Shown here piece by piece: positions 52,979 to 54,322 of a stretch of DNA of 64,000 bases. This DNA comes from Azospirillum lipoferum 4B (GTDB taxonomy: Bacteria; Pseudomonadota; Alphaproteobacteria; Azospirillales; Azospirillaceae), in assembly GCF_000283655.1 (NCBI RefSeq), contig NC_016587.1, forward strand, positions 310,001 to 374,000, given 5' to 3'. The position numbers were made by a program, and so were the translations under genes. The notes beneath the pieces are model-generated. The model saw only the letters and a list, made by a program, of their open reading frames with translations, did not search any database and was not told the origin of the DNA. The first letter of the stretch is position 1. Each line of letters opens with the position of its first letter.

Positions 52979-53089
52979 GGCGGCACCTGTCCGGTATTGA
53001 AGCGATGTCCACGGGACCCGAGTCCCGCATCGCACCGGTTTATGCCGCGATGGTACCGGCCGTCTGTGACGGAGTCACAGGGGGTCGGA

Positions 53090-53758
53090 TCAGGTGGCGT
53101 TCGTGTCGAGAACCTCTTCGACGGCAGACAGTATGGCTTCCACATCGCCGAAAGCCGGTTCCGCTTCGATGTCCCCATGTACGATTCTATTGCGCAAACC
53201 GGTCAGCTCACGCATGCGGCGTTCCGTCGCAGGGGCGATATAGCCGTTCATTGCGAGCGTCTGGATGAGGGAACCGGGCGTGTGTGCGGAATTTGGCTTG
53301 CGTTCAGCCTCGCCCACCAACTGGACGGCAGCTTCCAGCAGTGCCCAAGCCATGACGAATGCAGGACGACGGTGCCCCAGGGCACTCAGCGCCCGTGTCT
53401 CCTCCAGGCGGCGGCGGATGGCCGCCGGCGGAGCGGTCGGAACCACGACGGCTTGCCCCGATGCTGCGGCCCGGTGGACAACGCTCAATTGCCAATCCGG
53501 ATGTCCGTCGAACAGCCGCCGGATGTCCTGCAACTGCCAATCGGCGGGTCGGGTCGGGTGGCGCTTCACCTCGATGGCGATGTTCTGTCCCGGCTTCCGG
53601 GCCAAGGCGTCGGGGATGTACGACCCCAGGAAAGGCGGCAACAGGGAGGACTCAGGGGCGATTGTGAAGGTATATCCCTCAGCCTCATAGCGTGCGCGCA
53701 GGCCTTCGAGGAATTCCGCCTCGGTCTCTTCCGACCAGGCGTGAGCCGGCATGCTCAT
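53090..53758 (-). CDS. Putative nuclease: PD-(D/E)xK-like domain fused to a HEPN-like domain
   Basis: 222 residues, no signal peptide or membrane helix. The N-terminal half has a restriction-endonuclease-like core: P49-D50 in GSYIPDALARKPG and E63-V-K65 in IAIEVKRHP, spaced as PD-Xn-ExK. The C-terminal third is helical and carries R189-N-x3-H194 (GLRNRIVHGD), the RX4-6H motif of HEPN RNases in toxins and defence proteins. Both assignments rest on motif reading alone. Its ATG overlaps the stop of the RusA-like gene (ATGA), so the two are coupled. Lower GC than the flanks suggests transfer. Confidence 0.6.
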   Translation of the reverse strand: MSMPAHAWSEETEAEFLEGLRARYEAEGYTFTIAPESSLLPPFLGSYIPDALARKPGQNIAIEVKRHPTRPADWQLQDIRRLFDGHPDWQLSVVHRAAASGQAVVVPTAPPAAIRRRLEETRALSALGHRRPAFVMAWALLEAAVQLVGEAERKPNSAHTPGSLIQTLAMNGYIAPATERRMRELTGLRNRIVHGDIEAEPAFGDVEAILSAVEEVLDTNAT

Positions 53759-54189
53759 TGAACTCTCCTCCAGACCAGATCGTCATCGACGCGAATGTAC
53801 AGCACCGGCGGCTCGATATCCAATGCAAGGGCCAGACGGTCGCTCGGTGTCCGGAACTCCCAGCCGACATCCGGTTCGAACTTTTGGACGGTTACGCGCT
53901 CGACCACCCGGTCATCCAGATAGGCGATACCGATCATCGCATCCATGATCGGCTTGACGATATTGTCGATGTCGCCGGTCATCGGATCGCTGGGAAAATA
54001 GTAGATGGTAACGGCGAGAGGGCGATCGTCGAGAAAACCCAGCTCATAGCTTTCCCTCTGGCGCTCACGGGCGGCAGCCGCAACCCGTTCCTTCCAGGCA
54101 TCCCTATTTTTGGCGCTTTTGCTTTGAAGCGAGGCAGGAACGCCCTGCAGCACCACTTCAAAAGGGTAAAGCGTGTCGATGTCCGGCAT
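53755..54189 (-). CDS. RusA-like endonuclease family protein
   Basis: 144 residues, the size of RusA. The Holliday-junction resolvase signature is present: D73-I-D75-N-x2-K79-x3-D83, then the acidic pair D92-D93 in IAYLDDRVVERVTVQK ending at K103; the catalytic Asp triad and Lys are intact. RusA enzymes come mostly from prophages, but no phage genes surround this one. It is the first gene of a two-gene unit with the PD-(D/E)xK/HEPN-like protein. Visibly less GC-rich than its neighbours. Confidence 0.75.
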   Translation of the reverse strand: MPDIDTLYPFEVVLQGVPASLQSKSAKNRDAWKERVAAAARERQRESYELGFLDDRPLAVTIYYFPSDPMTGDIDNIVKPIMDAMIGIAYLDDRVVERVTVQKFEPDVGWEFRTPSDRLALALDIEPPVLYIRVDDDLVWRRVQ

Positions 54190-54322
54190 TCGCCCGCTTT
54201 GATTGCATCGTGTTTGGCGCTGCTCAGCTTTTATATGAGGAAAATGAGCGCTTCAATGCCCGAAGCGCGTATTCTGTGAAGGTTAAGGCAGATGATGGGT
54301 GAATGGACGCCCGGTCGGCGCC

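Follow-up and report, generated by a model that had tools for sequence, protein, structure and literature searches.

A RusA-family gene paired with an AHJR–HEPN fusion gene in Azospirillum lipoferum 4B looks like an undescribed two-gene module

Introduction

HEPN domains carrying an RX4-6H motif are described as the RNases of conflict systems in a survey that also defines the motif (Anantharaman 2013, PMC3710099). Table 1 of that survey records occasional fusions of HEPN-M/DUF86 domains with an archaeal Holliday junction resolvase-like REase that had escaped detection before; the fusion considered here is therefore already known, as a one-line prediction made in 2013. The main text of PMC3710099 does not mention RusA. 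In the HepT toxin, the tyrosine of the RX4HXY motif is the AMPylated residue (PMC7641770).

In this work, we analyzed a locus of Azospirillum lipoferum 4B in which a gene encoding an AHJR–HEPN fusion lies next to a RusA-like gene. A search of the main texts of openly licensed papers for RusA in combination with HEPN, AHJR, HepT, anti-phage or abortive infection yielded no description of this pair. The RusA partner, the residue-level pattern of constraint, and the empty site reported below are apparently new as far as these searches reach. An earlier note on this DNA knew of no named system with the pair, which holds for the RusA partner but not for the fusion, given its entry in Table 1 of PMC3710099.

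Results

Organization of the gene pair

The window, that is, the whole stretch of DNA that was analyzed, comprises 64,000 nt of A. lipoferum 4B (contig NC_016587.1, positions 310,001–374,000, assembly GCF_000283655.1). The features discussed in the text, in window coordinates, are the following:

53755..54189, minus strand: rusA-like gene, 144 aa, upstream member of the pair, with the catalytic set D73/D75/K79/D92/D93
53090..53758, minus strand: AHJR–HEPN fusion gene, 222 aa, with matches to PF18743 and PF01934, an AlphaFold2 model and fold matches
53381..53737, minus strand: archaeal-Hjc-like nuclease-fold domain, aa 8–126, with D50, E63 and K65
53093..53440, minus strand: HEPN RNase-fold domain, aa 107–222, which is the structural-match range and whose first 20 residues also lie inside the Pfam AHJR envelope
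53177..53194, minus strand: RX4H motif R189-N-R-I-V-H194; all 17 aligned homologs share R189 and H194 as well as the adjoining G195
53755..53758, minus strand: ATGA start/stop overlap of the rusA-like and fusion genes
54190..54321, minus strand: intergenic DNA upstream of the pair, which came in together with the module according to the empty-site comparison with the same-genus genome G003, and which is presumed to hold the promoter
53084..54321, no strand: whole acquired segment, its limits set by homology to same-genus genomes

The ATGA overlap that the earlier note had described was confirmed, as was the lower GC content, which is 61.4% for positions 53090–54189 versus 69.5% for the window and ranks as the fourth lowest among 1258 sliding windows of 1100 bp. 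The GC3 values of the two module genes are 0.68 and 0.73, and those of the seven other window genes computed lie between 0.86 and 0.94. Purifying selection acts on both genes, with dN/dS values of 0.09–0.14 for the fusion gene and 0–0.10 for the RusA gene (three close pairs each). These values (0–0.14 over the six close gene pairs), together with the same gene order and orientation at other loci, indicate that these are real genes and not chance reading frames.

The RusA-like protein

The 144-aa protein matched the Pfam model PF05866 (RusA) with an E value of 4e-9 (37.5 bits, cut-off 22.8), and the residues on which the earlier note had based its RusA assignment (D73, D75, K79, D92 and D93) are all present in the window copy. 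All 16 aligned proteins share D73, D75, N76, K79, D83 and D93; D92 is found in 15 of them. In a profile search, E. coli RusA (PDB 1q8r) aligned at D-x-D-N..K..DD, although as a weak match (E 0.42); we take the catalytic set of the E. coli enzyme to be numbered D70, D72, K76 and D91. The RusA-like protein is thus a member of the RusA family with an intact catalytic set, and cleavage of Holliday junctions is its predicted activity.

RusA is rare: its profile matched only 8 of 190 genomes of the class. In four of these the match was better than 1e-20, and every one of the four carries the fusion gene; the remaining four reached only 1e-7 to 1e-11. The subfamily to which the module RusA belongs had no match at E 0.01 among 50,697 phage records.

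The AHJR–HEPN fusion protein

The earlier note had proposed that the 222-aa protein joins a PD-(D/E)xK core (D50, E63, K65) to an RX4-6H HEPN motif (R189–H194), and both parts were recovered. PF18743 (REase_AHJR-like) matched aa 8–126 with an E value of 2e-27 (95.6 bits, cut-off 26.1), and PF01934 (HepT-like HEPN) matched aa 141–194 with an E value of 3e-5, close to its threshold (24.0 bits, cut-off 23.5). The AlphaFold2 model of the protein has a mean pLDDT of 80 and a pTM of 0.51, and fold comparison of this predicted structure agrees with the assignment of an Hjc-like nuclease domain and a HEPN domain. Searches of the PDB with single protein sequences gave no matches, and profiles were required; with these, Hjc-type proteins ranked first, and the HepT match (E 0.21) was level with ribosomal protein L29 (E 0.22). 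By fold alone, VRR_NUC, Bax1 and viral cap-snatching endonucleases score like Hjc for the nuclease domain; by sequence profile, the REase-like domain appears nearest to Hjc-type resolvases. The nuclease fold of the restriction-type core that had been proposed earlier is thus retained, with Hjc-type resolvases as its closest relatives by sequence profile; its lysine gives way to another residue in 9 of 17 homologs.

The constraint on the two domains differs at the residue level. D50, W138, E142, R189, H194 and G195 are invariant in the 17 homologs. The D...ExK core is complete in the window copy, and across the family D50 is kept in 17 of 17 and E63 in 16 of 17, whereas K65 is kept in only 8 of 17, the window copy included, with V (4), R (3) or L (2) elsewhere. 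It is conceivable that the lysine has migrated to another place in the PD-(D/E)xK fold; possibly, some members of the family use the Hjc-like core only to bind DNA. In the HEPN domain, N190 is present in 16 of 17 homologs and replaced by D in the other one. The position that corresponds to the tyrosine of the HepT RX4HXY motif (residue 196) is occupied by D (8), A (4), G (2), Q (2) or V (1), and in none of the 17 by tyrosine. The fusion protein shows the HEPN helical fold, as predicted, and an RX4-6H motif with a polar residue after the arginine. With the RX4H motif intact, the HEPN domain is a predicted RNase, and the overall pattern of conservation suggests that, of the enzymes in the module, RusA and HEPN are under the strongest selection.

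Recurrence and co-divergence of the pair

Eighteen distinct fusion loci were found, each counted once (L001–L010, L012–L016, L018, L019 and L021), 17 of them in Alphaproteobacteria and one in another class. Four relatives came from a scan of genome contigs, five loci from a plasmid collection, and the remainder were obtained by searching genomes with one protein sequence, with the A1 profile and with PF18743. Since some loci are close to each other (L008 with L009, and L010 with L012), the number of independent lineages is smaller than 18.

A RusA gene lies directly upstream of the fusion gene and on the same strand at all 18 loci, a count made with a RusA profile built from the partners themselves and with which single-sequence tblastn and the Pfam model agree. 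RusA is intact at 16 loci and present as remains at L016 and L019. At many related loci the two genes overlap by 4 nt or 1 nt, and at L018 they are separated by a 1-nt gap. The five loci that were found with the PF18743 model alone also have RusA (5 of 5, one broken). At L021, the locus outside the class, the pair is still linked at 18% identity for the fusion protein and 28% for RusA. Moreover, the distances among RusA proteins correlate with those among fusion proteins (Mantel r 0.86, p 0.0001, 16 pairs). When ten fusion genomes were checked with the Pfam RusA model, each of them matched at the module. Nine had no other RusA match; the tenth has a second one away from the module (G733:C1:572378-572512).

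Loci that carry only the HEPN half were used for comparison, and none of 10 had RusA within the approximately 1.5 kb fetched on each side. This control is weak with respect to adjacency because those 10 genomes have no Pfam RusA match anywhere (0 of 10), and the rarity of RusA is the better control.

Two of the loci are decayed. Both genes are broken at L016; at L019, RusA is split across two frames and K replaces E63 in the fusion protein. Separately, a control genome of Caulobacter vibrioides has matches above the cut-off to both PF18743 and PF05866 (genome-level matches), and this species could provide ready genetics for the module.

Distribution and acquisition

The fusion was found in none of 45 same-genus genomes. 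The flanks of the module align at approximately 85–97% identity in the seven same-genus genomes compared, and one of them (G003) has an almost clean empty site, where homology breaks off after position 53083 and starts again at 54321, the two flanks being separated by 52 bp. The module is therefore a gain in this genome, as the earlier note had anticipated. In the other six genomes the slot is occupied by a small ORF of 58–90 codons. This ORF is conserved in six of the seven relatives (L034, L036–L040) and absent from the window and from G003; its core reads MP[CH]R...IRQIR..SRE.H.L.ARE.LLR.ERRMI, and the one product scanned had no Pfam match at 0.05. Just to the left of the insert, near a Crp-family regulator gene, lies the palindrome TGTGACGGAGTCACA (window 53065–53079), which recurs with small changes in all seven same-genus stretches compared and which we take to be CRP/FNR-like in form.

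Of 385 genomes of the class, 6 were found to carry the module, one of them as a decayed copy; PF18743 was matched in 5 of 398 genomes of the phylum (4 above the cut-off) and in 1 of 14 control genomes (C. vibrioides). Four of the five plasmid loci are on Rhizobium/Agrobacterium plasmids. Plasmid searches with the distant members L010 and L018 as queries returned the same five records, and a search with the distant member L021 found nothing. No convincing direct repeats were seen at the borders of the insert, no tRNA was found at window 45–62 kb, and no integrase or transposase was recognized among the flanking window ORFs that were read or scanned. At L009, the module is closely followed on its downstream side by an IS5 transposase. 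We argue for transfer from the patchiness and the empty site only, because the HEPN tree used for comparison with the hosts is poorly resolved, with 12 of 14 inner branches open. A phage origin was considered and rejected, since neither protein matches phage records and none of 56 pattern matches in an A1 scan of viral contigs was confirmed.

Neighboring genes

Neither module protein matched any family of PADLOC-DB 2.0.0 at E values up to 1. Neighboring genes were compared with the same collection at E 1e-10. At nine loci (62 of 79 listed neighbor ORFs), the matches were AbiEi/AbiEii, PD-Lambda-2 B/C, PRTase_III-A (E 1e-97), GajA/GajB-like, mad2, RmrA and capP, each matched family being represented by one ORF. 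These conflict genes surround Rhizobium plasmid copies: AbiEi/AbiEii lie directly upstream of the module at L009, and the neighbors at L006 include PD-Lambda-2 B and C, PRTase_III-A and partial GajA/GajB-like (Gabija-like) matches; in addition, genes for Mrr-type nucleases are near the module at L008 and L009. At eight further loci, 64 of 70 listed neighbor ORFs were compared and a single match was obtained (mad2, 1.5e-12). A general defence-island setting was considered and dropped. Known defence genes thus flank just a minority of the loci. We claim no enrichment in defence genes, because likely spurious, very long or near-edge ORFs were left out by eye and the comparison had no random-region control. 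The recurrence of the pair that the earlier note had suggested looking for was obtained. Neither result that the note had named as refuting its reading, a 222-residue protein without either fold or a pair that never recurs outside this strain, was seen.

Of 10 genes scanned on either side of the module in the window, a single one, for an ABC transporter ATPase, matched PADLOC models (mad3 with E 2.6e-29, AriA, mad8 and ATPase-Toprim), which we read as generic ATPase similarity. From ORF translations inspected by eye, several copies stand alone among housekeeping genes, for example ptsP/prfA-like genes at L004 and cobalamin genes at L010. The module at L007 adjoins ligD and imuA/polY/error-prone-polymerase genes, the only repair surroundings seen.

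Large genes for ATP-binding proteins, seemingly alike, are located downstream of and convergent to the module at L007, L008 and L009 (Rhizobium/Agrobacterium plasmids); the product is HATPase_c_3 by Pfam at L008 and is annotated as 'ATP-binding protein' at L007 and L009. At the Croceibacterium locus (L003 421-4899), an ATPase-looking protein of 1493 aa, STAND-like by eye, is encoded upstream on the opposite strand and had no Pfam match at 1e-4.

Discussion

The RusA and fusion genes, which overlap or abut each other, constitute a conserved pair with intact RusA and HEPN motifs, and the pair was acquired. The reading that we tentatively favor, with somewhat less than even confidence, is that the two genes would make up a conflict unit that is complete in itself, spreads horizontally and has its HEPN RNase under the control of branched DNA. 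In such a unit, RusA and the fusion protein would form one complex, and its RusA and Hjc-like parts, which both have Holliday junction resolvases in their ancestry, would recognize and possibly cut branched DNA, for example the replication or recombination intermediates of phages or plasmids. Engagement of the branched DNA would switch on the HEPN RNase, and growth or phage production would stop; otherwise, the RusA partner would hold the HEPN domain in check. Because the canonical lysine is absent in about half of the homologs, we read the Hjc-like domain mainly as a DNA-binding or dimerizing module, and the working enzymes would be RusA and HEPN. The reading as a mobile conflict unit is supported by the linkage at 18 of 18 loci, the rarity of RusA, the co-divergence, the conserved catalytic residues and purifying selection on both genes, the Hjc-type profile matches and agreeing folds, the patchiness, the empty site, the low GC, the decayed copies and the known defence genes beside some loci. 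Against it stand the lack of PADLOC matches for the pair, the sparse defence neighbors and the copies located among housekeeping genes; the repair-gene surroundings of L007 fit a function in repair equally well. It is possible, but rather doubtful, that the module works specifically as a sensor and effector, with two unrelated Holliday-junction-resolvase folds detecting the four-way or branched DNA of invaders and thereby causing RNA cleavage by HEPN and growth arrest. Regarding the acquired defence module that the earlier note had proposed, the acquisition is borne out, and the defence part is what we infer, with defence neighbors at a minority of loci; given how sparse these are, it rests mainly on the HEPN domain, the patchiness, the mobility and the decay.

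The antitoxin-first order with its ATGA or 1-nt overlap, the HepT-like HEPN domain, the presence of four of the five plasmid loci on Rhizobium/Agrobacterium plasmids and the existence of decayed copies would all suit a toxin–antitoxin pair, with HEPN as the toxin and the RusA-like protein as a plain antitoxin that stabilizes the carrier DNA and senses no invader. This possibility seems unlikely to us, because an antitoxin that only binds its toxin would not need the RusA catalytic set, kept in 15–16 of 16 proteins, and because the AMPylation tyrosine of HepT is absent in all 17 homologs, which have D, A, G, Q or V instead. A role in recombination or repair, in which RusA would resolve junctions, the Hjc-like domain would be a second resolvase and HEPN a dimerization or nucleic-acid-binding part, agrees with the presence of two Holliday-junction-resolvase-type folds in one operon, with the conserved RusA active site, and with the ligD and imuA/polY/error-prone-polymerase genes beside L007. 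We nevertheless consider it improbable: R189 and H194 of HEPN are kept in 17 of 17 homologs versus 8 of 17 for the Hjc-like lysine, the module is rare and patchy, and repair surroundings were seen at L007 only.

The same lysine bears on a restriction-like defence, in which RusA and the Hjc-like domain would cut invading branched or replicating DNA and HEPN would be accessory. K65 is kept in 8 of 17 aligned homologs, including the window copy, and Mrr-type nucleases are neighbors at L008 and L009; however, 9 of 17 have another residue in place of K65 whereas the HEPN R and H are kept in 17 of 17, and no DNA methylase was recognized among the neighbor ORFs read by eye, which makes this explanation quite unlikely. 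Finally, no point was found in support of the idea that the RusA and fusion genes are unrelated neighbors brought together by chance, and the linkage at 18 of 18 loci in spite of the rarity of RusA (8 of 190), the co-divergence of the two proteins and the linkage outside the class at L021, where the identity has fallen to 18% for the fusion protein and 28% for RusA, make it extremely improbable.

If a conflict unit controlled by branched DNA is the right reading, it would bring a new trigger (branched DNA) and a new partner (RusA), neither of which is linked to HEPN RNases in the literature searched. PF18743, to our knowledge no more than a prediction from sequence so far, would then have a suggested function. 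Should the module prove to be a toxin–antitoxin or a repair system instead, it still represents a conserved operon of a DNA resolvase and a predicted RNase that is compact and testable.

Comparison with known systems

HepT/MntA (HEPN/MNT, type VII) resembles the module in the HepT-like HEPN fold, the RX4H motif and the two-gene arrangement. However, the partner of HepT is an MNT nucleotidyltransferase, and the gene next to that of the fusion protein encodes RusA at each of the 18 loci; the tyrosine of RX4HXY is present in HepT/MntA and absent in the module, and the module HEPN carries a fused Hjc-like domain. Consistent with this, the fusion protein scores below threshold with the NCBIfam model NF047751 (HepT_toxin; 22.7 bits, cut-off 60). 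Unlike the Csm6-type HEPN RNases, the module has no CARF domain among its Pfam matches. The archaeal Hjc/Hje enzymes are similar at aa 10–109 by sequence profile and fold, with the core D and E present, but in the module this domain is fused to HEPN and its lysine is not conserved. With E. coli RusA (PDB 1q8r), the module RusA has in common the fold and the D-x-D-N..K..DD set; compared with RusA resolvases, it constitutes a subfamily without a match at E 0.01 in the phage records, and its four close members among 190 genomes of the class are all in genomes that bear the fusion. The HEPN-M (DUF86)–AHJR fusion listed in PMC3710099 is a two-domain fusion of the same kind, predicted there from sequence. 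Considered alongside these systems, the pair looks like an undescribed two-gene module that combines two unrelated Holliday-junction-resolvase folds with a predicted RNase.
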